From Ulota crispa (taxonomy: Eukaryota; Streptophyta; Bryopsida; Orthotrichales; Orthotrichaceae), in NCBI GenBank assembly GCA_963920765.1, contig OY987244.1, forward strand, positions 9,364,501 through 9,428,500: 64,000 nucleotides of DNA, read 5' to 3'. The notes beneath the pieces were generated by a model that worked only from the letters and a program-made list of their open reading frames with translations, was not told the DNA's origin and searched no databases. Numbering within the stretch: the first letter of the stretch is position 1; each line of letters starts with the position of its first letter. The translations under genes and the position numbers were made by a program. Shown in pieces: positions 7,510 to 64,000 of this stretch.

Positions 7510-8447
7510 TTAACCCCTAAAAGACTATTGTCCCTTCAGGGAACAAATGGGATTTTGGACAAGTACTTATAGTCTCAATTTTTGTCCCGATTTTTTGAAA
7601 CTCTTTTTAAAGATAAAAAAACATATTAGCTTTTGGAGAACGTAATTTTTATTCCAATCTATGCCCGGGAGCAAAAGTTATTGCCCTAATAAGCACAAAT
7701 TTGGGGAGGCTAGGCACTAAAAAAAATTACAAAAACTTGTAAAACAAACTTGCTTTTTTTTTCTCATAGATTATGTTTTTGTCTACATCTGAAGCTTTGA
7801 TTCATTCCATTTGGACTAGTTATGAGAAAGCCATGGACAATCTTGTTTTTTGGGCAATTCAAGCATCTTCTTAAAAAAATAACTTATAAACTTCATTTTT
7901 GAATGCAAGTTTAACTTTTTTTCTAAGAAAATTGTTGGAAAGGGTAAAGTTTTCTTTCTAGAACAATCTCACGTTTGGGATTTTTGTGTTTCAATTCCAT
8001 TGCAAGGTTATTAACAGTTTAAGTTTTTGTTCAATCTCATACCTTCTTCTACCTAATGTCTTTTTTAAGAATGAAAATTAAGAATTTTTTGTTTCATTTT
8101 TTTAAAAGATCTTCAACTCAATTTTCAACCATAAAAAATAAATCTTCAAACTTTGTGGTGCACACATTTTAAGTTAAAAAAGTTCAAAGTCAAATAATCT
8201 AGTTATGCAAGGTGCAAAAAAATTTGTTTTTTACACTTTAAATGCAAATATCTTGCAATTTGTGTAGTTAAAGTTGTTGGAATCTGTTTTACAAACTCTT
8301 ATACTAGTCTAGTACAAGATCCTATGGTTAGATATGCAAAAGGACCAATTTAAATGAAATAAAATAAAATAAAGAAACTATTTGCCATAGAAATGACAAT
8401 TGTGAGTATATTTTGACAAAATAAAGGTCCTAGTCCTTTAGGGATTA
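7510..8447 (+). mobile_element. TTAA-CCC element b, 938 bp (long subfamily)
   Basis: Starts TTAACCCCTAAAAGAC, then TTGTCCCTTCAGGGAACAA; ends GTCCTTTAGGGATTAA. Alignable by eye with element o at 44.0 kb in the same orientation and with element v at 53.8 kb in the opposite one. No transposase frame. Confidence 0.75.
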
Positions 8448-10020
8448 AAGAAAACATCCACAAATTTTTAGAAAATAGGACATGTAAAGGTTATCATTGA
8501 AAATAACATTTTAACCTCTAAAGGCCTAAGTATTCATTCAATGGACACTTCAAAACTTGAATAAGGTTATATAAACTAAATTTTTGACAAATGTTCTCAA
8601 AAATTGACAAGTGATAGGCTTTTTCATCCTTGTCATTTTAAAACAAGTTACTCAAATCCAACTGCCAAAATTTTAAGTATCTTGCTCAAAAGTTTTTGGG
8701 TAAGTTGGGCAGCATGGTTTAGTTGGGCAAGCAAAAAGTAAGGAAGGTCAGATAGGAGCTGCTTCACAAGGGTCATCAATTTGCTGGGTCCGAGCTGACA
8801 AGGGCTCGCAATTACACTTGCAGCTCTTAGGGCTCCCTGCTTGTAGCTTCATGCTTGGGGCTCCAAAAAAATAAAGACTAATTTATAGTTTTTCTCAAGA
8901 GGTATCTTGCAAATTTAGAGTTAGTTGTGATTCTTTACAATAAATCAAAATACTCCTTTAAATTTTTATTTAACTACAAATTGAAGGTCATGAATTCAAA
9001 CATATAATTATCATGTTTAAATCAAGCCTCATATTCTCATGAGCACATATTAGATACACTTATATTTTTTCATTTAATGTCATAAAGTTAATTTCCCTTT
9101 TCAAGAAGGTCTACTACAAGCTCATAAACAAATGTTAATACATGATGAAATCCACTCATAGAAGCAATAAATGTTCAAGTCCTAAAAAAGAGGCCTCAAT
9201 TTCTTTTTATTACTATGAAGTTGTATTTTTCATTTAAAGACTCAAAGGGCACACTCATAGAATATAATTTTGCGGTTCACAAGAGATGTGTGTATTAGAA
9301 GTGGAAGCAATTTTTGACTAGGGACATACATTCACTTAGTAAAAATCACAAAAGCCATGGACACTACTAATGGAGAAATAACTTGAAACGTATGCATTAA
9401 TTACTTTTTACTATGAAGATATACCATTTGTAGAAGGTAGTTGGACCAATCTTCTTATCACTTGGATTTTTTTATATTTTTAAGCTCAATGCACAATAAT
9501 TTATTCCAAATTTCCTAGTGTATTACCAAGTTTTTAGACCTCCTTATATTGCAAGGTAATTCAAAACATGTTAGATTCATAAGTTGCACTTGGAGTTTAA
9601 AAAAAAAAGTGTACCCAATAAGATTTAGATGTCAATGAACACAAAACTTGAATTCATGCCAACCAAAAAACTTATTCCACAAAGGCTCAAAGTTCAATGA
9701 CCCAGTTGGATAGCTAGGGACAAAAAAAAATTCTTCTTAAACTTTGAATGTTATAATCTTTCAATCCATTTGATCAAATGGGTTGAATATGTTTGCACAC
9801 ATTGTACTACAAGTTTATACAAATGAAGTTTCAAAAATAAGTTTCAATTTTCATTTTACACCAACTTACCAAAAAACACATATTTTGACCATTTTTATTT
9901 GTGAAACACCCCTAATGCTTTTAGGGATTAAAGTTTGTGAAAATCGTGGGAGTTCAGTTCAAGCTTGGTATTCTTTTTTTGTGTTTTGTATATAGGCGAG
10001 ATGTTATTTAAAATCTATGT
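8448..10020. other. AT-rich spacer with no recognisable gene
   Basis: Short frames only, for example 9783-9995, with no features of a conserved protein. A slightly GC-richer patch at about 8700-8870 has no assignable identity. Confidence 0.5.
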
Positions 10021-10270
10021 TTAACCCCTGAGCGCCCAGGCCATATTCACCAAAATGCAAACCTAGTCACACTCAATTCAACTAATTTGTCATGAAAAAC
10101 GAGATTCATAAAATCCAACCTTATTGATTGGTAAGGGACATAGGCCCAGAAGTACAGGAAAAAAGGACACATGATTTGTTTTTATTGATGAAAAGATTAT
10201 AACAGTCAAACATGGAACTTTTTCAAATGTAAGAGGCCATATTTGGGGCTGTGGGGCACTTACGGGTTAA
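10021..10270. mobile_element. TTAA-CCC element c, 250 bp
   Basis: Starts TTAACCCCTGAGCGCCCAGG and ends TGGGGCACTTACGGGTTAA, with GGCCATATT repeated inverted near the ends. The CCCCTGAGCRCCC terminus is shared with element w at 62.8 kb. Confidence 0.65.
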
Positions 10271-10411
10271 GAAGTTTTTCAAATACAAATGTAATTAGAT
10301 ATTAATAAGTTAACAAATAATCACCATGTATTTCATATGTAGTATTTATTAGATTTGAGCCAATTATCACCTCACATTAGCATGAAAATAGCAATTGTAT
10401 ATGATAATGGT

Positions 10412-10522
10412 TAAGGGAGACATACCCAATCTCGCTCATGAACTTAATGCCACTCAAATGTACGCAAGGTGTACATTTGAACAGCATTAGATTCATGAGC
10501 AGGATTGGGTATGTCTACCTTA
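10412..10522. repeat. 111-bp hairpin, pre-miRNA-sized
   Basis: The left arm GGGAGACATACCCAATC pairs with GATTGGGTATGTCTACC. Pairing continues through CTCATGAA/TTCATGAG and CAAATGTAC/GTACATTTG to a loop of only about 5 bases. Roughly 85 percent of positions pair. It could be a small MITE or a precursor-like foldback; no flanking duplication was identified. Confidence 0.65.
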
Positions 10523-10530
10523 GATGTGAT

Positions 10531-10600
10531 TTAACCCTTTTGAGACGTGTTTTTCAAGTTTTTACCAATAAAAAAAATGCAAACACGTCTCATGGGTACC
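10531..10600. mobile_element. Small TTAA-CCC hairpin element d, decayed
   Basis: Starts TTAACCCTTTTGAGACGTG. TGAGACGTGTTT (10541-10552) pairs perfectly with AAACACGTCTCA (10581-10592). The right terminus is decayed to ATGGGTACC. Confidence 0.45.
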
Positions 10601-12626
10601 AAAACTTGATTTTTTTCATCCATCCATAGATTATGTGTTTTTTTTGTGAATATCTACGCACACATAGTATGAATTTCCAAAGCTATTTGGTGCAAACACT
10701 CCGCAATTTAAAGACTTCAAGGTTGTTTCACCCCAATTATCAGCTTTCCAATTCAAATGAGGTTTTTCAAAAGTGACATAAAAAAATTGATCAAGCATAT
10801 ATAATAAAAAACCATTCATGTCTTGAGCTTTACTGACATAGAGATTAGAATTTCTTACAAAAAAATCATTCACACTCGATCTACAATCAAAGCTTTTCAA
10901 GAGTTATATTATTTTATTTTGAGGCTTTCTTCATAAATACTACTGTACAGTAGTGAGACAGTATTAATGTGATTTATGGGTGATTCATTTAAAATTTAAA
11001 AAATCAATGTCTTCGTCTAATTATTCTTCTAAGTTGCATGATATATAGTACGCAAACAGCAAGCAAGTTTGCCCGAAAAATGCTTCAAAAAATGCTTCAA
11101 AAAACCAGTTGTCAAATTTCTTTCGGAACTTTCATTTTCAAGTACTATAAGCTTAGTGTTTTCTGGACAACAGATTAAAAAATCAAGGAGATTTCAAAAT
11201 GGTGAACTCAGAACAGTACTTGGAAAAGTATTCTTCTCGGATGTCGTGAAGCTATTATTGTTGACCTACGGTAGTACATCGTTAACCATTGATTTCCCCC
11301 TCCCAAGGTTGCATTCTTGAAAAGAGATGTTTACCAAAATATGCAAATCAATGAAGGTGGTTATACAGAATGAATGAGCTTTTTTGTTGACATTTTTTCT
11401 GAATCGAAGCTTTGTTGACAATGTCCGTTCCGAGAGAGAAAAACGAAATATTCCAAAGAAATACTAAATATTTTTTGAACCGCAAGGCGGGAAAATCAAT
11501 GCCAAACTGCTCCTTGGTTCAAATAGCTGCAGAACAACCGACAAACACGAGAACGTAGTCAACAAAACATGAGCATCGTAATCACTCCTTTATTGCACTT
11601 TAGGAGGAGAAACATGTGTTTGGCAAAATCCAATGTCAAAAGTTCCTTTTTTAAAAAAAACGACCTCTGATTGTTAGAAAATTTTATCCATCACATGTTG
11701 AAAAGAATTCAATGAGTACAAAAAAGTAGGTAAATTTCATGTAACTTAGTGGCCTTTGTTCAAATGGTGAATTCACAAAACTAACACTTGTTCAAAGTGT
11801 TTTCTCTCATTTATCACGCACTACTCATTCTCCATTCATGTTTACATTTAAGGAGTCAAGATCGAAACAACATTCATAACAAGGGGTTCCAAACCTCGAA
11901 GAAAATAGAAATTTTCTCTAATGATGTTTTTTTCCCAACAGAAAACAAACGTTTTCTTATACAAAATCGTAATTTCTCCAGAGAAAACCAAAAAGTAATT
12001 GCATGCCTAGAGTAGTATTTAAAAGTGCAAAGCACGGACTTTTTAGCATGAGAAAAAAAAAAAGCATGGGCCATTGTTTGGGGAGAAATATTAACTTCAC
12101 CAACTAAAATCCGACATCTCTCAATTTCAACCAGTTTTTCACAAGTATGCATCGGTTAGTTCCAATAAAAAAGTTATACTTCCATTGTATTGTCCTACAA
12201 TTAGATTTTGTTTTTTAAATGGTCGGTATTTATCTAATAATTTCAAGTTTCAACAGACTTTTTGCAATTTTAACTGGCTAACAATACACTCAATGGTTCT
12301 CCCCAAACACTAGCATGAGCCCTCTCATATGTAGAAATCAGCTCCAAGAAATAAATAAAAAACAAACAAACAAAAATGAAAAAGGAGCGGAGGAAAAGAG
12401 ATGAAAGATTGAAATGTGAAACGTATGGAGCTTTGAAACCCCTCGTAAGTGCTCATTATCATTTTTTACGAGATATTATAGACTAAAAACTGCCACTCTT
12501 CAAAAGCCTTTGCCTCATTCTAAACTCGCTCAGTTGCTGCTTCGAAAGCTCAGGAAACCAGGGGATTTTCAGAGCAGGAGTTGCCAAGGATGAGACCGTT
12601 GCAATCCATTCCAACTCCGCCCAACT
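10601..12626. other. AT-rich spacer with no recognisable gene
   Basis: Several short frames overlap on both strands (for example 10631-10900, 11069-11320, 11788-12152), all AT-driven and without recognisable motifs. Confidence 0.5.
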
Positions 12627-13068
12627 AAGGTAAAAGCACCTTATCTGGACACCGGTCGTTTTTGGATCCCTAGAATTCTCCCCAAAAAGTAAACCCTTGC
12701 TGCACTCAAATCAAATCCTTGTTTCACGCAAATATGACAAATGTTGTTCCGTATTCAAATCTTATTGACCATTTTAAGCAATGAAGTGATTTTTTCTTAG
12801 ACTCTCATGTCCACTCATTTGATCTATTCCCTATTTGTTTTTCCAAAATTCATAATTGATTTACAATAGGTCTAGGAACCACAATAGGTGTATCTACAAC
12901 ATCATCTTCAAAAACTCATATTTTATTCATAAAATTGCAAAAAATATGATAGCAATTTTTTGCGCATCTCTACCCATTTGCTAACCAAAATTTGATTTCA
13001 AAATCTCAGTGCAACTTCCTCCCAAATTGATTTCACAAAAATATACATGTAAGGTGCTTCTACCTTAT
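12627..13068. repeat. Probable 442-bp element with inverted ends
   Basis: The left end AAGGTAAAAGCACCTTA matches the reverse complement of the right end TAAGGTGCTTCTACCTT with few changes. No target duplication is clear. Similar GTGCNCCTACCTTA sequences occur alone near 5720 and 33015, so this may belong to a dispersed family. Confidence 0.4.
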
Positions 13069-13276
13069 TACCATTTCATTTTGCAATTGCGAGAGTGCAT
13101 TCAAGTGATGCTTCCCAGGTACAATAACTACACTTTTAGGAGTGACAAGACTTAAGCTGTAGAAGGCACCGCATGTAATCGAGACAGGAGGAAACCCAAT
13201 TTTGAGTGAATGCCACGGTGTATAATTTCCTCCAATTTTGCACTTGTGACAAGTCCCAAGTCCACTGACTTGGGTC

Positions 13277-13343
13277 ACTGAGATCTCAGTAACCCCTAAA
13301 TACCTGAGGCACCAAAATTTGGTGCCCCAGGCATTTAGGGGTT
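13277..13343. repeat. Two adjoining palindromes; the second is a 53-bp TTAA-type hairpin (element e)
   Basis: ACTGAGATCTCAGT (13277-13290) is a perfect 14-bp palindrome. Directly after it, 13291-13343 folds almost completely: AACCCCTAAATACCTG and GGCACCAAA pair with TTTGGTGCC and CAGGCATTTAGGGGTT. The ends are those of the TTAA-CCC family with the outer TTAA partly lost. Confidence 0.6.
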
Positions 13344-13599
13344 CACCTTGAAGAGTGGGGCTTGATGTGGTGTTTGTAGGGTGGGGATAGCAAAGTGCAT
13401 CCACTCCATGCTGTCACATTACATCAATCTTAAATTGTTTGTTCACATGGTGCAAACGCACTTGGTTTGAGCATGGACATAGGCATCATGCAATTTATAT
13501 ATTTATTTAGTCTGGACACGGATGTAGCCTTGTATTTGTGCCTTGTCCTCACCTTAATTCCAACATGGACAATCACATTGCTTGGTATGGATAGTCCAC

Positions 13600-13731
13600 C
13601 ACTAGTAAAAACTTGTGTTGAAGTCAACACAAACTACACGATGTTTTCATGCTTCTAATGTAAAAAAATTTGTTAAAAACATGAAAATATCATGTAGTTT
13701 ATGTTAACTTCAACATAGTTTCCTACTAGTG
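13600..13731. mobile_element. Small foldback with CACTA-like ends, 132 bp
   Basis: The left arm begins CACTAGTAAAAACTTGTGTT and the right arm, reversed, begins CACTAGTAGGAAACTATGTT. The arms run about 50 bp each. The terminus resembles plant CACTA elements, but no clean 3-bp target duplication is visible, so the superfamily is tentative. Confidence 0.45.
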
Positions 13732-15536
13732 ACACCCATCCTTTGGCCTAAATTTGTCCAAAGTAACAACCACAATCTATTGAGTGATTGTCACATCAAG
13801 CAAGATTTGATTGTCGGACAGTGCATGTAGACGTACAAAACAGACGGCACATACTGATGTGTTTGTCTACTCTCGCATTTTAGGGTTTTTAACCTAAAAA
13901 TGGAAGAATCAAATTACTAATTTTCATTGTTACTATGTGATATGGCTTTAAATCCATGTTTTGACTTCATGTTGGCAATAATAAGTGTCACTAGCATGTA
14001 CAAAGTGAGCTCTTTTTATCATTTTCTAAAGTCAACTATGAGTTTACTACATCGAATGGATGTGAGCTCAATTGGGCACTTCCGACAAACGGACTAGTAG
14101 ACATGCAAGTGGATGGACAGGCAGTTCAGCATGACAACAATGATTTTTCACTGCCAAAGTGGTCAAGAAGTGCAACCAAGGTGGAGCACCAAGCTAGCAT
14201 GGTGGCGCAAGAATGTGGAAGAAAGAGAGGGAGCCATCATGTATGACAAGCATGGTTGTCACATGGGGCTAACGCTAAACCACATGTCTATTTGATGCAA
14301 ACACAAATGATCAAAATGTAAGCACTTTTCCTTTTCATTTCTTCAAGTTGGGACACAAACTCAACTTTGCAATTACGTCTAGAAGTATGCGCCTGGACTC
14401 TAGCACAGACAACCACCTTGCTTGATCCAGTTTGCCCACTTGTCTTAACCTCGGGGAGTGCACTATACCAAATTTTCATGGGTACCCTGCGTTTGAGGCC
14501 CTATTAGAGGGGGGCTATGTAGGTAGATTTTGTGTATTTTCATAAGGTTATGTTTAGGTAAATTTCTAAATTCTTAAGATTAAATGAACCCTATGCTTCA
14601 TTATAAAAAACAAATTGTGATATTTTAGGATATCCTATTTTCATTATAAGGACACGTATTGGAGGAACAACAAAACTTTCAGAGCTCTAGAGTAACAAGA
14701 TAAGGAAACCCTACCCAGCCTCTGGCAAAGACAAATAATACCCTAAACCATCCTGAAACTAAATTTCATCCATAATTCCGAACCACAAATTTTGCTTTTC
14801 ATCCTCCCCTTGTACCGCCACGTGTAGTATAGAGAGAGCGCCACCCATTGTAAACCCTATGACAGCTGGCGTATAGGGCGCATTGGAAACCTGCTTTGGA
14901 TTCTATGGATACATTTAATACTAAAACCTATACCGGACCCTACCCTATTATAATCTTGGAATTTTGTTTCTAATAAAATAACCCTATTGTAGAACTAAAA
15001 ATATATAAAACTCATCAATATAAAATACCCTTTGTTATTTATAAAGACTGTATACACATTACAATGACCCTTATTTATTTCAAAGGCAGGTCAAAAATTT
15101 AGGACCAAAGCAATTAAAATGACCCTTCATTCAATTGCACGTGTTCTTAAATAAAATGGGGAGTGCACTCCCCAAGGTCTTAACCAACAGCCAAATCTTG
15201 CCCAATGTGACAACCATGACGACAAGCACACACTCATGCAAATGCGGAGGGCATAGTTGACATGCAAAGGCAAAGAAACAAACAATAAGAGAAGCTGGAT
15301 GCAAGGGGTGGGGTTTGAGGGCCATTTTCCATGGGGGGCTAGAACTGGAGGCCCATCGAGGTTGACCCGGATAGAATGAAGAAAATTTCCAAATATGTTC
15401 AGAGTGCGTAGAGTTTAGAAAGTAACCTCTGATTTTGGGTCTAGAACCTCCAGAGATGTAGTTTGACTTTTATAAAATCGATAGCTGGACGTACAACTCG
15501 GACCCCTCCGGCCCCCATGGAAACTAGCCCTAATGC
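13732..15536. other. Spacer with no recognisable gene
   Basis: Mixed AT-rich DNA. Minus frames at 15131-15325 and 15415-15747 lack recognisable domains. Confidence 0.45.
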
Positions 15537-15839
15537 CAAGGCCACACAGGCTCAGAACTAGTGTTTTGAAATGGATGAAGAGTAACTTGTATTTTTGGAA
15601 AACTAGGAGACAATCACTTTCCAAGTTTTCATCTACTATCCAACTAAAAATAACCTCTCCACCATTCCAGGGCAGGAGGTTTGAGACACCAATTTGTGAA
15701 TTCTTAGAACCGACGTTTTTAAACAAACTAGAAAAGTGGGCCCTCAAAAGTCAAAGAATCTGCTTTCACTAAAATCAGTAGCTCCGACACTTGTTTTGAA
15801 ACGCCAATTTTGGTCTGTGGTCTGTGTGGCCTGGCCTTG
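15537..15839. repeat. Dispersed repeat, copy 1 (about 303 bp)
   Basis: Homologous to 27462-27780: both contain GTAACTTGTATTTTTGGAAA, an AGGTTTGAG segment and a CAAAGAAT-TGCTTT segment in the same order. Ends are CAAGGCCACACAGG and, inverted, CTGTGTGGCCTGGCCTTG, suggesting a short-TIR DNA element. Superfamily unknown. Confidence 0.55.
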
Positions 15840-16749
15840 ACTGGTGAGGCTTGGCAGCCGACACGGCAGAACGGGGATTACCAGCCATGGCGAGAAAGAC
15901 GAAGGAGAAGAGAAACACATTCAAACCAGGGGTCCACCAACCAGAGGTCACTGGCATTTGCAAGCAGGGATTGAAGGCAGGTAGGGATCACTCCGCCCCC
16001 CACACGTTGGGTGCACACTGGATTGGGAGCAAGTGGTCCAGTGTGGGCGCCCATGCAGCACTCTATCAAAGCCACGAAATGTCTTGCATTGCTGGTGCTG
16101 CTCACTCGCTCCCAGGTTGGTCGTCTCCGGTGGCGGAACACCTGCTTTGCTTTGAATGGATTAGGGGTGGTCACACCTTCTTCACCCCATTCTCAATCTT
16201 GGTAGTGGCATTTTTTACTTCATTTGCAAAAGTTTCATTTTTTGGAAATTGAAAAAAAATAAAAATCACTTATAAAGGAGAAGAATGGGTGTGGAGAAGT
16301 TTTTGCAAGTGAATTTTTTATCTATGTGTGTTTCTTTTTTGTCTAGCTCTTTTTGTTTTCACCCTCCTTGTAGTTGGAAACCTTGGTTGAGTGTGTGAAT
16401 GTAACTTGCTTTCTTACCAAATCACCATATTTTAAGTAAAATTATTCTCCATTCTCCACCACTCACAAAACAGAGTTACACATTTTTCATAGAAAAGTGC
16501 ATTCATTGGCTCCTATTTCCACTATACAACTTCTCATTCTTCATGGAAGTTTCATTCTTGGAGAAGATGTGAACTACCCCTATTGTATAAGAAAGACAGT
16601 AAAGATTCATGACAAAGTTGGGGTATCAATTGGAGCGACAAGTAAATTTGAAGTATCTTCTCAAACAAAAGATAGGAGATTGCTAAAACCACACTCCATA
16701 TTGTTAAAGCAACACCTCAAGGTGCATTGAGAGCATGCAAATAGAGAAT
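15840..16749. other. Spacer; a GC-richer patch at 15.8-16.2 kb holds unassigned frames
   Basis: Open frames exist on both strands (+ 15851-16252, - 15878-16174), but their motifs match nothing I know and they shadow one another. I do not call a gene. Confidence 0.4.
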
Positions 16750-17691
16750 TTAACCCTTCACCCTTTAGTGCCCGTCAACCATTTGGGGGGGCATCTCAAA
16801 TTTTCACTATACTGTCTACAAAACACATTCAAGGACAAAATTTGTGATTTTAAAATCAGATCGGACTAGACATATCAAAGCTATAAACTTTGGCAACATG
16901 AATATAAAAAAAAAAGTTTGATCTATTGGAACGATTCTAAGTGAGGATTGTGAGAAGCTTGATGATCCAAAAAAACTTGTTGTGCAAAAACGTGAGACAC
17001 TCTAACTAGTTAGTGTCAATTGTGCAATTGAAACTTTTGATAGTGGTGGGATTTGTAGAGGCTATTGCCCCATTCTAGGTTACTGCATTCCAAAAAAAAA
17101 TTCAAAATTCGAGTCAATCCATGCATTTCCCAACATGATTTGTGAAATTGAGCATTGGAAGAATACAAACGTGGCCACACATATACGGTTGAATACAACA
17201 TGCATGGAACATGTTTCCACAAAATCCGATTGGTTAATATCATCTACATTGGGTGTCATTTGAGGTACTAGGTCCCACATTTAGCATTGCAAACCTTCAG
17301 AGCCTAAGGAATCATAGAATACATAATGTTGTAACTGAAATACGCTATACATAGAACTTCTAAATAAACCATGCATCTTCTGCACAATTGCTAGAGACTT
17401 AGCACTAGATACTTTGGGTGCAATATGTGGGCTTTGGGGCCACGTTGCGATTGCACTGAATTAGAATTTCATTTGTTACACTTGTATGAGATTCCCAGCT
17501 TCATATGTAAAACACGCATAGCTACCATGTTTCTTTATACCATGCTTTGAAATTTGTTCTAGTAGGAGCACAAACTAAACCCCAACTCCGTTACGTTCTT
17601 TGTTTTTGCGAACTAAATAGAACAAAGATGACAAGAACCACGGAGTACCAAAATCAACCCAAAAGTGGTCAACCAGGCACTAAAGGGTTAA
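16750..17691. mobile_element. TTAA-CCC element f, 942 bp
   Basis: Starts TTAACCCTTCACCCTTTAGTG then CCCGTCAACC; ends GGTCAACCAGGCACTAAAG then GGTTAA. The inverted ends share GTCAACC and the CTTTAGTGCC block. The interior differs from the other long copies, so it is a separate subfamily. Confidence 0.65.
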
Positions 17692-17766
17692 ACCCTAAAT
17701 GCACAAGGCACCAAAATTTGGTGTTTGTAACACTGAAATTTGGTACTATGGGCATTTAGGGGTTAA
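17688..17766. mobile_element. TTAA-CCC hairpin element g, 79 bp, sharing TTAA with element f
   Basis: Starts TTAAACCCTAAATGC, ends GGGCATTTAGGGGTTAA, with AGGCACCAAAATTTGGTG inside. Related to the 53-bp hairpin at 13291. The TTAA at 17688-17691 is also the right end of element f. Confidence 0.6.
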
Positions 17767-18251
17767 ATGTCCCTCGGAATAGAAGATACATTGCCATATA
17801 ATTGGCATTTACTATCATTCAGAAGTTTTAATTTGGGATCTCAAATAGCTCTCTAGGACTGCATTGATCTATATTCCAATTTCTTTGTTGATCTCAAATG
17901 TAGTAAAGGTGTGAATCTATTCCAAATACAAGAAAATTACCTTGTATTGTACTAGCCACAACAACACATGTAATAGACATTTAAGGGTCAATGCCAAAAA
18001 TTCTTAATTTGGATTTAAAGAACTTGTTTTGTCTTTATTATTCTAGGGTTGTGTTCTTAGAATTTAGGGGTGCTTTAGTCTACAATTGAAAAGAGATAGG
18101 ATTTTGGAATTACATAAAGGGGAGATATATCAATATAATGAGCAATGGCATAATTGAAGTTGAGTATAAACCTATGTTTGTTCTTATTTCTTTGAAAGAA
18201 GTGGCAATATGCCATGATCAAAGGAATGATGGACCACCTTAAGAAGATAGT
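17767..18251. other. AT-rich spacer, nothing recognised
   Basis: No coding frame or structured repeat was seen. Confidence 0.45.
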
Positions 18252-18260
18252 ATTAAATTA

Positions 18261-18666
18261 GGGGACTTTACAAATAGGGGCACAAAAATGAAAAATATTA
18301 CAAATAGGGGCACATTTTCAAAATAATTACAAATAGGGGCGCAATTTCAAGATAATTTGTAAATTTTTGTAATTTTTTTTGGTTTGACCATTGGTTGATT
18401 TAGATATATCACACCAAATGTTAACTAACTTCCATAAACTTAGAGGTCTTTCAAAAAATTGCTATCCCCTTTGCTAAAATTTCTTTACGTAGGCTTAATT
18501 TGGAGAGGCCTTTAAGTTTTTTGGAAGTTAGCTAACATTCAATGTGATATATCTAAATCAACCAATGTCCAAACCAAAAAAATTTACAAAAACTTACAAA
18601 TTATTTTGAAAATGTGCCCCTCTTTGTAATATTTTTCATTTTTGTGCCCCTATTTGTAATTTCCCC
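18261..18666. mobile_element. Mutator-type MITE, copy 1, 406 bp, with a perfect 9-bp TSD
   Basis: Flanked by ATTAAATTA on both sides (18252-18260 and 18667-18675). Ends are GGGGA... and ...TTTCCCC. The left end holds three direct copies of a unit close to ATTACAAATAGGGGCAC; the right end holds inverted copies. Further in, TTGGTTGATTTAGATATATC is mirrored by GATATATCTAAATCAACCAA, so the whole element is nearly palindromic. A 9-bp duplication is typical of Mutator-like elements. There is no coding capacity. Confidence 0.85.
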
Positions 18667-18675
18667 ATTAAATTA

Positions 18676-20308
18676 TCAATACTCCTTGCTCACCGCACAT
18701 CTTGGGGTGTTGCTTTAACAATTCTTTAAAGGTTTTTGTATATAAAGATTCAATTGTAAACAACAACCCATTCAAGGCATAAGGGGTTTGAATACATAAT
18801 ATATATTTCAAAACTCACTATGTTCTTTTCTTTGGTCCTCCTACCCAATATGGGTAACTTACCAAATTATTGACTATTCATGCAATTATGGACTTGATGT
18901 GTTCTAACATTGGAGATTTTCTATATTTTGCATATGTTTTTCCTTGAGCTTTGCACGTTTTATTGATTTAGACATGTCTCTTGATGTTTGTAAACATCTT
19001 CCTAGGTTTTGCTAGTACCTTTCAATGTTTTGCAAACCAAATTAGATTTGACTTTGAATCATTTGTATTTAATTAAATGTGGAATCAAACAAAAACTCTG
19101 GATTTCTTAGTGGTGGTTTCAAGGCTTATTTTTGTTTTTATTGTATTTTTTACTTGTTTTCTCACATGTGAGGGGTTGTACGTTGCACTCTTGCACACCT
19201 AGGTGCACAGAAGTTTTGATTTTCTTATGAAACAACACAATTTTGCTTGAGAGAGCTATCAATTTTGGAAGAAAAGTTTCTTTAGAAAACCTTACTTCTC
19301 CGAGGTTTGATACCCCGAATGGATTCTTAAATCATAAGTATGTTGCGTTTAGAGGGAAAACCAAAATAGAAAATTCACTGCCCATTTTTGTTGTAGCGAC
19401 ATGTAAATTTGTCCCTTTTTAAAATGGTCATATGGAAAATGTGCAATAAGAAAAGATTACTAACCTTCGATCAATTCCCAAAACCTAGCCCCTCCTTTGG
19501 GTTTTCCAATAAAACCTACAAGATGGCATCTTCAACGATGCAGTTGGTTATCCAAAAAATTTGGGCCTCCCAAATTTTAGATAGCAACTTTTCAATCTTC
19601 TACTAGAAGTTCAGGTCTTGGGGCTCCGTAGTGTGAGGGTGTTTTCAAAGTCGAGGGGAAAAATCAAAAAGAATCTTGAAACTACTTGGTTTGCCAAATT
19701 GACAAGTTTTCTTAAGAAAAACCAAGGAAAACGTAAGTTTTTTTCTAGCAAAATTTGGTTTTGTCATGAGAAAAAAAAAATTGCTAGACATTGCGAGATA
19801 GATACAGAGAGGTGCAGAAAAGTGGTCAACTCTCTCGCAAGTTAAAAATCCGAAAAACAAAAATGCAATAATGAATCAAAACATTACAACCTTGAGATCA
19901 TCTGAAAAATCAGAACTCTTGTACGGTGCAAGACAGAATAGACCAACAAAGACCTAATAACCATACGGGCTATCCATAGCTCTCCTCAACAGCGTTAAAA
20001 AATTGGCAAATTTTTGCCAAAATTTTATCCATAACACTAGAAAAACGTGGTAATAAAATGGATAAATTTGCAAAATCTCTTCCCAAACTAACACCCGGTT
20101 CACCAGAATTTGGATGACACATACTAAAATTAGTAGATTATATGGATGAACATGTACACTTTGTAGGTTCTATCTGTTTCTATCCAAATTTTCCTTACTT
20201 GCTTGCACTCATAGGTGCCTGTTGCGCAACCAACCAAAAAAACAATTTTAGAGGCTGCTCCTCAATAAGTGGAAACTCTTCGTAACTAAACGCAGGAAGG
20301 TTTAAGTC
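18676..20308. other. AT-rich spacer with no recognisable gene
   Basis: Frames at 19409-19606, 19618-19845 and their antisense are short and unassigned. Confidence 0.5.
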
Positions 20309-21230
20309 TTAACCCCTAAAGGACCGCGGCCTTTTTTTGTGAATTTCAGTGTAAAATTGCCACTTTTTGGAGAGTGAGTAGAATAGAAAAAAAAACTTTT
20401 TTTTGGAAAATCCAACCGTAGGATCTTGGCCTAGACTATGGGAGGTACTTCTTGGGAAAAAATCAGCTCAATCTAAATGTTGAGGAGTGAGATATTTACA
20501 TCCAAAGTGAAGAAAAAAGTTTTTTCTTTACTGCCCAAAATTTTTAGAAGCCTTTGACCATTGATAACCCAAAAAAATTACTCTACGCAAAGTTGAGAAT
20601 TTTTTTTATCATGTCCAAAACCAAGTTAGTTATGTGTGGGAGAATTTTCAGATGAATTGGACATGTGGATCATACTTTGTAAAATCCTGCAATGCCACAA
20701 GGTCTAGAATTTTACAAATACACTAGGCAAAATTGGAGGATTTATGTAAATTGAGAAATCTGAATTACTTTGATCCAAAAGGTGAAAACCAAGGAATCTT
20801 AGTCTACTACAACTTGGAAAAAAAAAGTAAATAAACAAATACACAAGGAGCTCAAAAAAGTAAAGCAAAAAGTTTTACAAGGGGGAAAAGGAATGGAGGT
20901 TTGGGAGTCCCATACCTACTAGCAAACTAAAACTTCTCATATGTTTCATCTCATCTTCCCAAATGCATAAAAATCTAAAGAACCAATTTCAAAAAAAAAA
21001 AAAAAAAAATCAATTTTTTTGGCTGCTCGGTAGTCCCTTGTTTTTCAATTATTCATGCATAACTTTTTCAATAAATGTCATAATGAAGAAAAAATTACAT
21101 TTCCATGTAGATTTTTGAATTCCTCACCTTCAATAAAAGTTTCAAAAAATCATGCAAAGTAGTTTAGCCATAGGTACATGCTCAAAATCCCATTTGTCCC
21201 CCAAAAGGACAACAGTCCTTTAGGGGTTAA
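20309..21230 (+). mobile_element. TTAA-CCC element h, 922 bp (long subfamily)
   Basis: Starts TTAACCCCTAAAGGACCGCGG, ends GGACAACAGTCCTTTAGGGG-TTAA. Shares interior with elements t and u: a GTGAGTAGAA segment, then TAGACTATGGGAGGTAC, then a TTTGATCCAAA-TGGTGAAAAC-like segment. The terminal 100 bp also match the long copies b, o and v. Confidence 0.75.
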
Positions 21231-27460: not shown

Positions 27461-27461
27461 C

Positions 27462-48947: not shown

Positions 48948-50515
48948 TTTTGGGAATCATTTGGCCAAAATCTTCATAACCAATTATTTCTATTTTATTA
49001 ATATTTTTTTTGTAGGAAATGTGCTAAAAAAAACTTAAAGTTTTGACCCCTTCTCACTTTACTTTACAACCAAAAGCCATTACCTTCAAAGGCCGGCTTC
49101 TCAAGGACAAGCCATGGCTCATGAGGGATTTTCTTCACGACTTCTCACCTCTAGTGTAAATTAAAGAGAGCCTTAGAGCAACTTGAGTTGAATTGCCACA
49201 CTAGTTTTGCAAATTGGCAAGTAGTGAGGTGGTGCCACACTAGTCTTGCAACCTTGCAAGTAGCGGTGTGGCATAGGCAAATTGTTAGGCAAGGTTGGTT
49301 TGCACAATCCACTCCATTGGGCACCTAGATCATTGCTCCTCCTTTTGCCTCAGTTCCCTCCCCTCCGCTCTTATGATTACAACAACAAATAAGAACTAGC
49401 CACATGGCAACATGCAATACGACAAGAAGCCCAACATTTTCCCTTTCCATCCACCATCTAAGATGGATTTGCAAGGACTCTACTCCCACTAGCAACTTGC
49501 TCTCCCCACCTAAGGTTGCCAACATGGGGTGGAGGCTGCCTAGTGGTCAACTTTGAGTTCTACACCAATGGGTTAGATGGAGATGATTTTAGAAGCTAGA
49601 AATGTTGATTTAACCCCTAAAGGACCAAGGAGCCCTCTTTGAGCAAATGGATAAGTGGGCAAGCATTTCCCATGTAAATACACAAGATAAGACTATGAAA
49701 ATAAAGGTGTATGTGCTCATATTGAAAAGCTTGCATACCTCCCCAAAAAATTGAATAGTTTTTGAGTGAGATATGGTACCAAATGTGATTTAGGTGTCAA
49801 CGCGGGCATCCCTAAAAAAAATCAGAAACAAAGAGGTTGAGGAAGGGTGTTGCCCAAACAGTGTTCAAAAGCACTTTCCAATGGCTTGGTCAATGTGCAA
49901 AATTTGAAGTGAACTCTCCTTGACTATGTAATAACTTCTATTTTACTTTTTATTTTAAAAACAACATACTTTGACAAGTACTCTATATAATGTTTTATGT
50001 TTATACCATATGGATTTTGTAATTGAGATTTATTTCTTTAAGAATCTCTTTGGTGAAGTTTTTTTTGTGTAATGACAATTTGAACAAAGTGATTCCCGCT
50101 TTTGATTTTTTTCCATTATGTTTTAAGGATTATATGATCATGAAATTTGTGAGGCATATAGCCAACTTCATGGTCTAAAATACGTTAAATTGCACAATAA
50201 ATCATATAGTGGAAGATGTCATTTTGAATGACCAAAAAAAAAATTGACACCTAAGAATGCTTCAAAAATAGTGTTGGCCCTACTTTGAGTGTTATAATCT
50301 AATGGAGTATGCCCTCACAAAGTTTGAATTTTTGAGAAGATGTACATAAGAAAGTTACAAAATAGATCTTACGATTAAATTCTTGGGGAGATCACTCCCT
50401 CTTACATTTTGCATACACCTTTAATAATGACATATATTTTAAATGGGGGCTATTTACCTTGTCAAAAAGATTGAAAGACATGGTTTAAAAAATTTATAAA
50501 GGCAAATGTTAGTAA
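48948..50515. other. Spacer with a solitary TTAA-CCC end
   Basis: TTAACCCCTAAAGGACCAAGG at 49610 is a clear family left end with no right end found. A short diverged duplication (GCCACACTAGTYTTGCAA) lies at about 49195-49275. No gene is recognised. Confidence 0.45.
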
Positions 50516-51897
50516 TTAACCCCTAAAGGACCAAGCCATTTTTTTAGTGAAAGTTATTGAAAACTGCCACTTTTGGGGAAATGAGTAGAATGGTAGGAAA
50601 AACAATTATTTTTGGAAATCTAACCATAAGATCTTGCTCTAGACTATGGGAGGTACTTGTGGAAAAAAAAATCAGCTCATTCTACATGTAGAGGAGTGAG
50701 ATATTGACATCTGAAGTGAAAAAAAAAAGTTATTTTCCTTGTTGCCTAAAAATCTCAAAAGCCTTTGATTACCCCTAAATCAAAAAAATTGCTCTACGCA
50801 AAGTTGAGGTTTATTTTTTCCATATGTTTGACCACGTTATGTAAGTGTGGGAGAAAATTCAAATGAATTGGAGGTGTGAATCATACTTTGTAAAATCTTG
50901 CAATGCTGTAAGAGTATTTGCACCCTGCCCGCTGGCCCATCTCGCGACGCCGGCTTGGCGCGTTGAGGGCTGAAAAACCCTCCCCACCTCGCGCATGCAA
51001 TGGAGGCCGGGGAAGTGGGGCGATGCCTAGGGCGTTGCAGCCCCGGCATTTTCCCTCCCTATGGCGAGGCAGGAGGGAAAATTCATGGGCTACAAACTAA
51101 TCTGCAGATGACACGTGGCACAATCTCATTGGATGCGATTCTGTTCTCTTGGGGCTCTATAAGAACCACTAACATGATGACACGTGGAGTAGCGTGAGAG
51201 GCTACGTACGGCAAGTGGCAAAAAATGTTTTTATTTTAAAACTGGAGCGGCGCCGCGATGCCTCAGCTGGGGTGGGTTGTGCTAGCCACCCTGCCGTCCC
51301 GCTCTGTCTCCCGCCTTGCTGCCTTGCTGGGCAGGGTGTAGATGCTCTAAGGCCATCAAATTTGCTTATACATTAGTCAAAATTGGAGAATTTATGTAAA
51401 ATTGAGAAATGTGAATTACTTTGATCCAAATGGTGAAAACAAAGGAATCTTAGTCTACTACAATTTGGGAAAAAAAGAAGCAAAAAAACAAATACATAAA
51501 GAGCTCAAAAAAGTAAAGCACCAAAGGCAAAAGGAATGGAGGTATGGGAGTCCCGTACCTGCCCACAAACTAAAACTTTTCACTCATGAATCAGAATCAA
51601 ATGATTAAAAGCTCCCCATATATGTTTAAATCTGAAGAACCAAATTCAAATATTTATTTTGAAAAAAAATTATTTCAAGAAATTTTTTTGGCTGCCCACT
51701 CTCCCATGTTTTCAAATTTTCATGCACAACTTCTTCAATAATTGTCAAAATGAAGGAAAAATTAGATACCCACGCAGATCTTTGAATTCTCCATCTTCAA
51801 TGTAAATTTCAAAAAATCATGCAAAGTAGGTTAGCCATAAGTACATGCCCAAAATCCCATTTGTCTCCCAAAGGGACAATGATTCTTTAGGGGTTAA
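50516..51897 (+). mobile_element. TTAA-CCC element t, long subfamily, interrupted by a Harbinger-type MITE
   Basis: Starts TTAACCCCTAAAGGACCAAGC, ends GACAATGATTCTTTAGG then GGTTAA. Colinear with element h. Without the nested MITE and its TAA it is about 942 bp. It contains an unassigned 68-codon frame (51402-51608), partly matched by open sequence in element h. Confidence 0.8.
50911..51347. mobile_element. PIF/Harbinger-type MITE nested in element t, 437 bp, GC-rich
   Basis: Ends GAGTATTTGCACCCTGCCC and, inverted, GAGCATCTACACCCTGCCC (16 of 19 match), flanked by TAA at 50908-50910 and 51348-51350. The TAA duplication and GAGCATCT-type end are typical of plant Harbinger MITEs. Element h has no insertion at this place. 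Its GC content is far above that of its host. Confidence 0.8.
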
Positions 51898-52832
51898 CCC
51901 GTAAAAGCCCAAGCCCTTTTTTCTGTGAAAGTCACTGAAAATTGCCACTTTGGGAGAAATGAGTAGAAAAGTAGGAAATAAAGTTTGTTTAGCAAATCCA
52001 ATTGGAGGGTCTTGCCTTACACTAGAAGAGGTACTTGTGGAAAAAAATCAAGGCATTCTAGATGGAGAAAAGGGAACTATTTACATCTGAAGTGGAAAAA
52101 AAGATTTTTTTGTGCTGTCAAAATAAAATCAGACACCTTTTACCACTCTTACATGAAAAAAATTTCTCAACACAAAGTTGAGGTTTATTTTTTCCATGTG
52201 GAAGACCAAGTTAGGTATATGTGGAGAATTTTCTAATCAATTGGAACTACACAACACATGGGGGGAAATAGTAAGTAAAAAGAAGTAGAGAATGAGTCAA
52301 ATCACTAAATTGTTAAGAATTTAATTATTAAAATGAAAAATGAAAATCCCAACAATCATAATGTTGTAATAAACAATCTACTTCCTTAGGTTTAGTTTTT
52401 ATTTCAAAATATTGAAAATTGTAGAAGATAAAGGACTTCAAAGTTCATTTTAGAGTAGAGGATTTGTAACTGCCCACAAACTAAAACATCTCATAACTTT
52501 CATGTCATTGATTGAAGTTGAATGATTCAAAGCTTCCTAAATATTTAAAAAAATCTAAAGAACCAATTTCAGAAACTTTTAATTAAAAAAATGTAAATTT
52601 TGAAGAAGTATTTGGGCTGCCCGGATAGCCCTCTCTCCGCCGGGTTGCAATAATTCTTGCGTAAGTTCTTTGTCAAATGTCAAAATGAAGAAAAAATTTG
52701 ATGTCTGCGTAGGTCTTGGAATTCCCCACCTTCAATAAAAGTTTCAAAAAATCACACAAAATAGTTTAGCTAGAGGTACATGCCCAAAATCCATTTGTCC
52801 TCTGAGGGGACATTTGGGCCTTTAGGGGTTAA
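51894..52832 (+). mobile_element. TTAA-CCC element u, 939 bp, sharing TTAA with element t
   Basis: Starts TTAACCCGTAAAAGCCCAAGC; ends GGGGACATTTGGGCCTTTAGG then GGTTAA. Colinear with h and t, in the same orientation as t. Confidence 0.78.
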
Positions 52833-53829: not shown

Positions 53830-54757
53830 TTAACCCCTAAAGCCCTTAGGCCTTTATTTTGTCAAAAGACACTCAAAACTGCCATTTCTATTGCAAAGAG
53901 TAAAAAGTTTTAAAATTGGTCTTCATATCTAACCATAGGATCTTGCACTAGACTAGTACAAGAATGTGCATTAAAAAATTCCAAAACTTTGACTACCCAA
54001 ATTGCAAAATATTTGCTTTTAAAGTGTAACAATCAAACTTTTTTGCACCTTATATGATTAAATTGTTTTACTTATAACTTTTTGAACTCAAAATTTTTGC
54101 ACCACAAAGTTTTGAAGTTTATTTTATTATGGTGGAAAATTGAGTTGAGAATCTTTGGAAAAAAAATTAAAACAAAAAAACTTAGTTTTCATTCTTAAAA
54201 AGAGCATTAGGTGGAAGAAGGTATGAGATTGAACAAAAATAAAATGGTTAATAACCCTGCAATGGAATTCAAACACCATAATCCCAATAGTGAGATTGTT
54301 CTAGCAAGCAAACTTCACCCTTCCCAACAATTTTTTTTGAAATTGTTAAACTTGCATTCAAAAATGAACTTTATAAGTTATTTTTTCTAGAAGATGCTTA
54401 AATTGCCCAAAAAACAAGATTATCCATAACATTTGCACTTAGTCCAAATGAAGTGAATCAAAGCTTCAAATGTAGACAAAGATATAATCTATGAGAAGAA
54501 AAGTTGAAAAAAAAATTCAAGTTTTTGTAAATTTTGTTTGCTGCTTGATCTTCATAAATTTGTGCTTATTTAGGCATAACTTTTGCTTTTGGGCATAGAT
54601 TGGAATAAAAATTATGTTCCCCAAAAGCTAATGTGTTTTCCTATCTTCAAAAAAGTATCAAGAAACGAGGACAAAAATTGAGGCTGTATGTACCTGCCCA
54701 ATATCCCATTTGTCTCCTGACTGAGTCCCGAGGGGAGACTCAGGGATTTAGGGTTAA
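53830..54757 (-). mobile_element. TTAA-CCC element v, 928 bp, reverse orientation
   Basis: Starts TTAACCCCTAAAGCCCTTAGG, ends CAGGGATTTAGGGTTAA. Reverse-complement colinear with elements b and o, and without the block nested in o. Its left 120 bp also align with the left end of h, t and u (CATAGGATCTTGC then CTAGACTA), which ties the two long groups together. Confidence 0.78.
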
Positions 54758-56577: not shown

Positions 56578-56989
56578 GGGGATTGATATGTCTACCTCAC
56601 CCTTTTAGCTATTCTACCATCCTCCCAAGATAAATTATAGATTTCTACCGTCAAATAGTTGAATCTGACAATTTGGAATTTAGATTTGGACTTAAAGACC
56701 TTGATTTTGTCTGAAACCATAAAAAAGGTTGTAATTGAACAACACCTAATGAAAAAGCTTAGCGAGGTGAAAAAGTATTACTTTTACTTTTGTTTATAAA
56801 AATAAATAAGCTTATTCATTGAATGTTGTTCAATTAGAACCCTTGTATGATTCTAGACTAAATGACAATCTCTAAGTCCAAATCTGAATTCTAGATCCTC
56901 AAATTCAACATATTGATGGTAGAAATCTAAAATCTACCCAGGGAGGGTGGTAGAATAGCTGAAAGGGTGTGGTAGACATATCAATCCCC
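56578..56989. mobile_element. Foldback element, 412 bp, possible 9-bp TSD
   Basis: Arms of about 75 bp: GGGGATTGATATGTCTACC and TTAGCTATTCTACCATCCTCCC, mirrored on the right. Flanks GGCAAAAAT and GGCAAAAAA match at 8 of 9. The centre (GTTCAATT, GATTCTAGACTAAAT, then TCCAAATCTGAATTC) resembles that of the foldback at 44566-44858, although the outer ends differ. Confidence 0.7.
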
Positions 56990-61206: not shown

Positions 61207-62822
61207 TGCATTTTCATGTCATCCAAGAGTGTTGAAGAATAATGTTGCAAGAAAGCAAGAGTATTCATGTTACAAACAAGTTTGGAGCCATCCTAATTGC
61301 TGGCCCCAAAATTTCACTAACTTGTCTGCTAACGTAGTTAAATTGATTGGTGAACTAACAACTTGAAATACCACAAAAACCCTAATTGTGAACACTTCAA
61401 TGGACAAATATTTTAAGCAATGACATTTGAGATAATTTAGTTTGGGGTTGCTAGTTTGAACCAAGCCCAAATCTCTGAATTCTAATCATACTTGGATGCA
61501 ATTCATCCATTTCGCCGTTTGAAACCATTTATTGGTCTCGTCATGAACGCTCGTTGCCCCCAACATGCACCGGCACTGAATATGTTTCTGAACCACTTGT
61601 CTGATTGTCATTGGACTCGTTTACTTTCTTCGACCTTTACAAAGCCAATCCCCATTGCTTGGGACGTTGAGGCAAGAAATAGTAGACTTGCACGTACTCC
61701 TCTCGTGAGCTTGCATGCTGGTGCCACGTGGTGACCGCAATCCTCATGGACATAACATTGTTAACATTCACTAGGGGTTCCCTTTTGCTTCCCCAATATG
61801 AGGACCCCTAGCCAATACGATTCATCAGCTCTTGACCAGTCCCAACAAAAATCTAAAACTGAACTCTCCCCCAAGTATCGTAGGAGGAATATCCTTCCAC
61901 CTGGGGTGAGGTACCTGAGCGGTTTAACAATGTTATAGGGAGTACCCACTATGCCTTGCTTTCGTTGCCACTCCGGAATCATCCCCTCCCTGTCCCTGAT
62001 TCCTCTTTACTGGTTCTTATCTTCCACTTGCCCCCTATCACCTCCACTGTATTATCACTATTGATTTTTGCTGGGGGAAGGAAAGAAATAAAGATAAAGA
62101 AGTAGATACAAACTTTGAAAAATAAAAGGAAAGCCCTCATCACCAGTCCTCGTTCTCTGCTCCGTGCTACTGATTATTCTACTTGTCGTCACCAAGCTTC
62201 TACAGTTCTCCGCCGTGTAACTTGAAATAGTGATCTCTCCGTTCCTAGTCCGCACTTGTCTTTTCAGATGCTTGATAGGGCTGGCGGCATAATTCTTTGA
62301 GTTTCATGTGGCCCTCGCTGCTGCTTCTCTTCCTTTTCTTCTGAAGGTTCGTTCTAAAAAAATTGGAGGTCTTAACCCATTTAGCTGCTGGTGGGGGCAG
62401 TCCCATGAAACACCTAAAGAATAAGAAGTAAAAATAGACTTAGCCTGAATGCCAGGGTTTTCTTTTTTCATTTTGTACAAGGTGTCAAAGTGGCGATTTA
62501 TAGAGTTATAGTGGTGCTTCAAATTTCAACATTCATCCATATAATGGATAGAAAATATCACATTAGCACATATTACATGTCTATAATTTGGTTTTCATTC
62601 ATAATTTGGCAATTTCATCCAAGATTTTTTTAAATTTGAAGCTTTTTTGGCGATTTCATCCAAGGTTTTTGTCACATTTTTTAACTAGATTTTTATTTTT
62701 GGTGTAATCGAGCACCAAATCGCCATAAAAAAAACATTGTTGAATGCATGCAATGATCAATCACATCAAGGAAACAAAACAAGTATAATTTGACATTGGT
62801 GGTTGGGTATGATATTCAGAGG
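61207..62822. other. Spacer with no recognisable gene
   Basis: Frames at 61492-61734 (+) and 61761-61982 (-) are unassigned. Confidence 0.4.
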
Positions 62823-63624
62823 TGAACCCCTGAGCACCCAAAGTGAAGACAAGAAAATGAGGCCAGGAGTGACCATGCTCAAAAAGATAGTACGCCCCGA
62901 GTTGGGAATTTTGATCGGGGAGGATTCACCGTTGAAATAGCAAAAAGGGTGCTTGATGCACCCACCCAGAAATTTGCAAAAATTTTGATCGCACCATTTT
63001 GTAAATTATAATAGTCAAAGTATAGTTGACTATGTGGCAACCGGCCAATTTTAGGGGGTTTGTGGCTTTGGATGCAAAAATCTATGCCTCAAAATAGGCT
63101 ATTTTTTGATGAAATTTAAGTAAGGGATGCGATTTACAAGTATCTTGCTTGCTGCCAAATTTAGTGATGTTCCAACATCCACAAGGTGCTTTTTGAGAGG
63201 CCTAAAGTTGCAAGGCTCACATGGCATGGTGGACAATAGACGGGGATAGGTATAGCCTTGACCTCCACAAGTGCACGGCTCTTGGAGGTATAGTTGCAAA
63301 ACCCTTCTCTAATCTGATGCATTTGTGCCAAAACATCTCTTACGGTATGGAACCGGCAATATTTGGTGGTCTCTATCCTCACACCCAAACCCTAAACTGC
63401 ACAAAATGACATTTTGGCATCTATTTGTCATACTTGACTTGCACAATCTGTGCTTGTACATGCAAGTAACAAAATCCCATCGGTCCACTCTGATGACATG
63501 AGAGTAGTACTGTACCCTAAACCCAAGTATAGTTTTTGGCCAGTACCCCTGATGTGGACAAAATTCTTTTCAAAGTCTGATTTTGGGCACCCCAGTTTGA
63601 GGCGCTGGGGCTCTCAGGGGCTAA
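62823..63624. mobile_element. TTAA-CCC-type element w, 802 bp, ends decayed
   Basis: Starts TGAACCCCTGAGCACCC and ends GGGGCTCTCAGGGGCTAA. Both outer TTAA copies carry one change. Its terminus is shared with element c. Confidence 0.55.
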
Positions 63625-64000
63625 CCCCTAAAGGACCAAGCGATGTTTTCTCCAAAAACTCTTCAAAACTGTCATTTTTAGAGCATCAACCAAATTTGAA
63701 AACAAAAACTTTTTTATGCATATGTAACCATAGGATCTTGTAATAGGATAGTTTGAGAATACTTGGGAAGAATTTCAGAATTTTCCGCCACGTGGGTTGG
63801 AAGATACAACTGTTTGAATGTTCAAAAATATCTTGTGAAAATCGGCAGCTACCCTTCAAAAGGTGGAACTCTTAAGGAAAAAAGGCTGTGTGGGTGGCGC
63901 TTCTCTAGATTACTTATTCCACCTAAGTAGGGTACTTGTCAAATAAGTTTCAAATCATTTGGAATTATACAACATATGGGAAAAAAATAGTAAGCAAAAA
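63621..64000 (+). mobile_element. TTAA-CCC element x, long subfamily, runs off the window
   Basis: Starts CTAACCCCTAAAGGACCAAGC; then CAAAACTGTCATTTTTAG and TAACCATAGGATCTTG as in elements v, h, t and u. It shares its CTAA with the end of element w. Confidence 0.7.

Follow-up and report, generated by a model that had tools for sequence, protein, structure and literature searches.

The window analysed here, a stretch of 64,000 bp from contig OY987244.1 of Ulota crispa (AT-rich, with 38% G+C), is nuclear plant DNA, as judged from its genes, which include a GRAS protein and deaminase-domain open reading frames (ORFs), and it contains a swarm of elements that are bounded by TTAA and carry CCC tips at both ends in inverted orientation. 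The 21 hand-curated paired elements (Table 1) have a union of 14,807 bp, or 23.1% of the window; within positions 7510-64000 their share is 25.4%. Three more single ends were found at 40092, 49610 and 63621. The elements are probably old non-autonomous DNA elements of the piggyBac type, comprising miniature inverted-repeat transposable elements (MITEs) and their relatives of about 930 bp, in the nuclear genome of a land plant. Since no transposase was found in the window scans, the superfamily was inferred from the anatomy of the ends alone.

Detection and extent of the swarm

Counting both strands, 35 exact copies of TTAACCC were found, compared with a mean of 11.05 and a maximum of 17 in 20 first-order shuffles. 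When up to one mismatch was allowed, 162 occurrences were counted against a shuffle mean of 159.1, so that the ends alone are not enriched. The pairing of ends was evaluated by scoring convergent ends 50-1500 bp apart for agreement over 11 inner bases, with 100 second-order shuffles as reference. Pairs with at least 9, 8 and 7 matches out of 11 numbered 10, 14 and 22, respectively, with shuffle means of 0.03, 0.39 and 2.06 and maxima of 1, 3 and 8, and chance clustering of TTAACCC was ruled out by this excess. In the control orientations of the real sequence, 3, 7 and 15 same-direction pairs and 2, 3 and 5 divergent pairs were obtained at the same thresholds; these also exceed the shuffles, probably because neighbouring copies belong to one family.

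The curation drew on the end scans and on an all-against-all comparison, and 15 of the 21 curated elements are among the 22 pairs with at least 7/11 matches. For the six others, which start at 3548, 35729, 42038, 44002, 45940 and 53830, the grounds for inclusion were similarity to a family, an internal inverted repeat or an empty site, except for 35729-37030, whose only basis is a weak match of its termini. The 14 terminal bases agree poorly in those elements for which their identity is listed in Table 1. An earlier note, made from the letters only, had described more than 20 TTAA-bounded elements filling about a fifth of the window, which agrees with the paired elements, the single ends and the excess of convergent pairs. 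The size classes that it gave stand roughly, with a class of about 930 bp, two copies of 651 bp and small elements (57 to 604 bp), and copies of 802, 1302 and 1421 bp have to be added. Its restriction of the swarm to 7510-64000 had to be abandoned, given the clear element at 3548-4015.

Table 1. TTAA-bounded elements and single ends in the window. Inner, matches over the 11 inner bases of the two ends; termini, identity over 14 terminal bases; A and B, end types.
Positions	Strand	Feature	Evidence and remarks
3548-4015	.	TTAA element, 468 bp	Within left arm of Stowaway-like MITE; empty site 29/31; termini 8/14
7510-8448	+	~930-bp class, A end left, B end right	Inner 10/11; 79.8% to 53830-54720 over 916 columns
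8511-9931	.	TTAA element, 1421 bp	Inner 8/11; termini 9/14; stretches resemble the 40092 copy
10021-10270	.	TTAA element, 250 bp	Inner 7/11
13289-13345	.	57-bp foldback, hardly more than two ends	Flanks GTAA and, reading inward, TGAA; inner 10/11
16757-17691	.	TTAA element, 935 bp, sole full copy in window	Inner 10/11
17688-17766	.	79-bp foldback	TTAA 17688-17691 common with neighbour; convergent-pair scan
20309-21230	-	~930-bp class, B left, A right	Inner 10/11; 78.6% to 50516-50906
30462-30932	.	471-bp foldback, two A ends	Self-inverted, 74.7% over 474 columns; inner 8/11
35729-37030	.	Weak candidate TTAA element, 1302 bp	Termini 9/14; another MITE inside, ~36104-36552
40092-40700 (end nominal)	.	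Single TTAACCCC end, element-like interior	40092-40358 58.7% to 50516-50784; right border sought, not found
42038-42348	.	311-bp foldback, TTAA/TTGA borders	Internal inverted repeat 42068-42323
42345-42948	.	604-bp element	Tetranucleotide 42345-42348 (TCAA) common with neighbour; inner 8/11
43012-43243	.	232-bp element	Inner 9/11
44002-45153	+	~930-bp class, A left, B right, enlarged to 1152 bp	83.9% to 7764-8139; 75.2% to 8134-8452; termini 9/14
45242-45892	+	651-bp family, copy 1	45242-45789 75.5% to 46263-46810; inner 9/11
45940-46266	.	327-bp foldback, two A-type ends	Self-inverted, 80.5%; clusters with A; outermost bases offset, termini 4/14
46263-46913	+	651-bp family, copy 2	TTAA 46263-46266 common with neighbour; inner 10/11
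49610-49660 (end nominal)	.	Single TTAACCCC end	End scan; partner sought, not found
50516-51897	-	~930-bp class, B left, A right, enlarged to 1382 bp	Inner 9/11
51894-52832	-	~930-bp class, B left, A right	TTAA 51894-51897 common with neighbour; inner 9/11
53830-54757	-	~930-bp class, B left, A right	53830-54720 79.8% to 7536-8448; right terminus altered, termini 7/14
62823-63624	.	802-bp element	Inner 8/11; tetranucleotide 63621-63624 common with end at 63621
63621-64000	-	B-type end, element runs off window	63622-63740 70% to 50517-50636; clusters with B

TTAA as the duplicated target

The element 3548-4015 provided an empty-site reconstruction. It is inserted in a MITE at 3529-4579, labelled here as Stowaway-like, whose TACTCCCTCTGTCCCA arms match over 31 bp and whose left arm is broken by the element, which begins 19 bp into it. 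When the element and one TTAA were removed, the left arm became gapless, with 29 of 31 positions identical to the right arm, which serves as reference and reads TAAA opposite the TTAA of the element. Among joints keeping from -2 to 10 bases, the joint keeping 4 was the best (32/44, with 11/20 after the joint versus at most 7/20 for the others), and among the 818 TTAA flanks in the window only the border at 4015 fitted 8/8, the next best being 6/8. A 22-bp palindrome around the TTAA at 3651-3654, inside the element, could mark two abutting (nested) elements of 107 and 365 bp. The one- and two-element readings share the same outer empty site, and a single element was favoured because the subterminal sequences of the left end at 3548 and the right end at 4015 are similar. 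The body of the interrupted MITE also contains a direct repeat pair (4224-4356/4388-4520).

At 17688, 42345 (TCAA), 46263 and 51894, abutting elements were found to be separated by no more than one tetranucleotide, and a fifth shared tetranucleotide (63621-63624) probably adjoins the end that runs off the window. The number of shared junctions is in mild excess over random TTAA insertion (4 versus 1.34 expected, P 0.037; 5 versus 1.75, P 0.022), and this excess was not used as support. Outside TTAA..TTAA, no direct repeat beyond chance was detected in the 21 elements, where one 4-base coincidence occurred against 0.14 expected. The alternative considered in the earlier note, namely that TTAA is part of the terminal inverted repeat (TIR) and that another duplication flanks it, was ruled out by this lack of an outer direct repeat, by the single tetranucleotides at the shared junctions and by the empty site with one TTAA-like tetranucleotide.

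The four positions of TTAA were kept in 41, 39, 38 and 41 of the 42 curated ends, which had been sought with TTAA in the pattern and in which four junctions are counted twice. This selection was answered by a TTAA-blind search with the 18 inner bases only (trained on TTAACCC sites, threshold 11), which gave 68 hits against 11.7 expected. The hits were preceded by TTAA in 32 cases, by a sequence one change off in 10 and by other bases in 26, the last including shifted registers and chance hits, and those with a central TA read TTAA in 32 of 36 cases. As far as one window allows, TTAA is established as the duplicated target, in line with one of the two readings given in the earlier note, by the empty site with its best joint of four bases, the shared junctions, the lack of an outer repeat and the conservation of the tetranucleotide itself.

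Terminal anatomy and families

The tips of the elements have C at positions 1, 2 and 3 in 38, 41 and 38 of 42 ends, followed by C (31/42) or T (7/42) at position 4 (either base in 38/42) and then by T (39/42), in agreement with the common TTAACCC(C/T)T terminus reported in the earlier note. The terminal repeat extends over about 14 bp and reads approximately CCC[C/T]TAAAGGNCC. The element tip CCCCTAAA also resembles CCCTAAA, the plant telomere unit.

The class of about 930 bp comprises six copies, which were separated by the all-against-all comparison into two subfamilies. The copies at 7510, 44002 and 53830 are 75-89% alike in aligned stretches and those at 20309, 50516 and 51894 about 70-80%, with aligned stretches between the subfamilies reaching 58-63% or being restricted to the ends. 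The 935-bp element at 16757-17691 belongs to a different family, and the other families are the 651-bp pair (45242 and 46263; 75.5%), foldbacks with A ends (30462 and 45940) and several singletons. This divergence among copies indicates that the insertions are old. When bp 15-200 of 41 ends were clustered automatically by single linkage, an A cluster of 10 ends and a B cluster of 12 ends were obtained, the latter also taking in ends of other families. All six copies of about 930 bp combine a single A end with a single B end. Several unrelated interiors sit behind similar tips, suggesting that one transposase source, or closely related ones, may have served many families.

Two members of the class of about 930 bp have been enlarged by insertions. 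The insert at ~44567-44857 in element 44002, which is unrelated to its host and arrived later, has inverted ends (ACTAGGGAGACACCCC...) and an inner part resembling the inverted repeat at 56578-56989. The insert at 50908-51352 in element 50516 is G+C-rich, with inverted ends GAGTATTTGCACCC / GAGCATCTACACCC and TAA on both flanks, and looks like a Tourist-type (PIF/Harbinger) insertion.

Subterminal palindrome

Hairpin scores for the subterminal 32-bp segments of 43 ends averaged 5.07, against 4.25 (SD 0.15) in 200 dinucleotide shuffles, an excess that is inflated because related copies were counted. When the ends were weighted by family (18 automatic clusters), the best palindrome centre was found at bp 25.0, with a value of 0.392 against a background of 0.275 (p 0.0027 versus interior offsets and 0.001 versus random window positions). 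Elements shorter than 150 bp were left out of this weighted test, and one of the two so omitted has its palindrome centred at bp 25. A profile with one hand-picked end per family gave a z value of 4.3 and was discarded because the ends had been chosen with the sequence known, the automatic clustering being used instead. The palindrome near bp 25 is regarded as moderate support, at best, for piggyBac.

Coding content

Six-frame Pfam scans, in which stops were read as X, covered about 53,500 of the 64,000 bp (2101-7102, 7401-22301 and 30400-64000), and eight translated ORFs in all were included from 1-2100, 7103-7400 and 22302-30399. They revealed no transposase, and only two weak, sub-threshold hits to domains of unknown function were obtained (E 0.072 and 0.075). 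The sensitivity of the scans can be judged from the recovery of a deaminase exon with an E value of 1.8e-7. Within the 21 elements, no stop-free run exceeds the longest one, of 98 residues.

Comparison with piggyBac elements

The hallmark of piggyBac elements was given in a study of coral MITEs as TTAA followed by a TIR of 12-19 bp with CC[C/T]T, and a family with CCCCT was counted by its authors as conforming (PMC2872659). The CCC[C/T]T tip, the TIR of about 14 bp and the unlike ends of the window elements fit piggyBac, the tip with the reservation that it mostly reads CCCCT, and the link that the earlier note had drawn from the TTAA boundary and the CCC at both ends remains a probable one. 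The tips of coral CMITE families II and III agree at 11/14 positions with the best of 36 window ends, and that of family I at 9/13, both figures being without a chance control. The coral CMITEs are also alike in their TTAA duplication, their TIRs of 13-14 bp with a CCC tip, their lack of coding sequence and the occurrence of neighbouring copies, but they measure about 100 bp, their interior is conserved, and for one family descent from a piggyBac parent was proposed (PMC2872659). The elements of the window, in contrast, have family-specific interiors, range from 57 to about 930 bp and above, reside in a plant and have no known parent.

Cryo-electron microscopy of piggyBac placed the transposase core on the first 16 bp of the end and a dimer of the C-terminal domain on a palindrome at bp 17-33, and unlike ends were found to be required in cells (PMC7351741). 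An analogous imperfect palindrome was described on one end of piggyBat, the right end being without it. The autonomous piggyBac of Trichoplusia ni has 2,472 bp and a transposase of 594 aa (PMC10140906). The window elements share with it the TTAA target, the short TIR, the unlike ends and possibly the palindrome near bp 25 (PMC7351741), and differ from it in showing no detectable coding in the stretches scanned, in having other palindrome sequences and in including some symmetric A/A copies.

On this basis, a transposase encoded elsewhere would recognise the ends of about 14 bp, excise the elements and insert them at TTAA with duplication of the tetranucleotide. The enzyme would be of piggyBac type; its catalytic core would bind the first ~16 bp, and a dimer of its C-terminal domain may occupy the palindrome near bp 25. 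Several families may have been cross-mobilised through the common tip, and the copies are presumably silent now.

Weighing of the alternatives

A number of observations weigh against the assignment to piggyBac. No transposase and no autonomous parent was found by the six-frame Pfam scans in ~53,500 of the 64,000 bp. Most tips are CCCCT, not strict CC[C/T]T, and two foldbacks (30462 and 45940) bear A/A ends. With regard to the empty site, the comparison was made with the other arm of the interrupted MITE and not with an orthologous locus, and excision of just 3548-3654 performs nearly equally (31/44 versus 32/44, with 10/20 after the joint), fitting 4/8 first bases, versus 8/8 at the border 4015. 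With regard to the palindrome, the hairpins had been noticed by eye before any testing; unweighted, the signal at bp 23.5-26.5 in 41 ends had a p value of 0.054, and in 43 ends the top centre was at bp 84 (0.382), with bp 25 equal to bp 14 (0.364), while bp 25 ranked only fourth once the A-type ends were left out. After weighting by family, bp 91.5 was a second centre of nearly the same height (0.383 versus 0.392). Finally, a 2023 guide to the annotation of plant transposable elements lists nine plant DNA superfamilies (seven with TIRs) without piggyBac, a word that is absent from the text of the guide (PMC10741241).

Other sources are less restrictive, and PiggyBac is named in the general superfamily list of a 2024 plant review (PMC10794571), while piggyBac-like elements are said, without detail, to occur in plants (PMC8086355, PMC10140906). 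A C-Fern survey reported 1,230 PiggyBac and 2,739 Sola elements, which jointly make up <0.1% of the assembly (PMC6890710). The predominance of Sola in the C-Fern table bears on the main rival explanation, namely that the window elements are non-autonomous members of the Sola superfamily, which is considered unlikely. Sola elements produce 4-bp duplications, as seen at the empty site of the window, and have very variable termini, with TIRs from 11 bp, and a moss record exists (PMC10741241). However, CCC tips and unlike ends are not linked to Sola by any of the evidence gathered, and neither its terminal motif nor its use of TTAA, a target presumed for the Sola3 branch, was confirmed in the portions of the literature examined. 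An undescribed plant superfamily or lineage specific for TTAA, whose ends would resemble those of piggyBac by convergence, is a still more doubtful proposition. It would accommodate the lack of a parent in the window scans and the similar tips on several unrelated interiors, and no TTAA/CCC MITEs of land plants were described among the literature matches listed (titles and beginnings of abstracts, mainly of non-subscription literature). Nevertheless, all testable features of the ends are in full or partial agreement with piggyBac, and none of them excludes it.

Very little weight was given to MITEs of the Tc1/mariner (TA) or PIF/Harbinger (TWA) type with TIRs starting with A and a preference for TTAA. 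If only TA were duplicated on insertion into TTAA, the filled and empty sequences would be the same as after a TTAA duplication, the target being TTAA either way, and therefore the empty site alone cannot separate the two; moreover, Stowaway- and Tourist-like elements are present in the window. The outer T and A were each kept in 41/42 curated ends, and the high proportion of TTAA among the TTAA-blind hits with a central TA argues against plain TA or TWA targeting. A TWA duplication by Harbinger would, in addition, leave the ends unequal by one base, whereas all four TTAA bases are kept at both ends. Elements of the Kolobok type, which also duplicate TTAA (PMC9587614, PMC6004289), can practically be set aside because the tips are CCC and not RR. 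Their termini are 5'-RR (PMC9587614), versus C at positions 1 and 2 in nearly all window ends, and those of the Xenopus T2 MITEs are AG/AGG (PMC6004289); the plant range given for Kolobok comprises green and red algae only (PMC9587614).

Beyond the assignment to piggyBac, a more far-reaching interpretation was considered, which appears rather unlikely on present evidence. A TTAA-specific lineage of land plants, either a deep branch of piggyBac or a separate superfamily, might have been amplified genome-wide into very many non-autonomous copies with a fixed end plan (a tip of 14 bp and a palindrome at ~bp 25), the sequence of the palindrome varying by family as if the binding domain of successive source transposases had switched specificity.

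Studies of piggyBac have been carried out mostly in animals. If the assignment is true, a plant genome with nearly a quarter of a gene-bearing region taken up by TTAA/CCC elements would extend the known range of the superfamily. It would also suggest that such elements are overlooked or wrongly classified when plant repeats are annotated, and it could be a source of a plant transposase that excises precisely at TTAA.

Genes and other repeats of the window

The GRAS-domain ORF is located at 23234-25477 on the minus strand, is uninterrupted (747 aa) and has Scarecrow-like 3 and SCARECROW as its best relatives of solved structure. Two deaminase-domain ORFs, presumably RibD, lie at 1639-2642 on the minus strand. 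Rfam and tRNA scans of the window were empty. A family of inverted repeats with repeated TTACAAATAGGGGCAC units at their ends is represented at 504-596, 18255-18666 and 36104-36552, the last copy lying inside the candidate element 35729-37030. A long inverted repeat at 6154-7029 has arms of ~400 bp that are 90-93% complementary and separated by a 77-bp spacer, and a perfect tandem array of the 22-bp unit TTTATTGTATATGATATTTTAT is present in 5.4 copies at 48050-48167.

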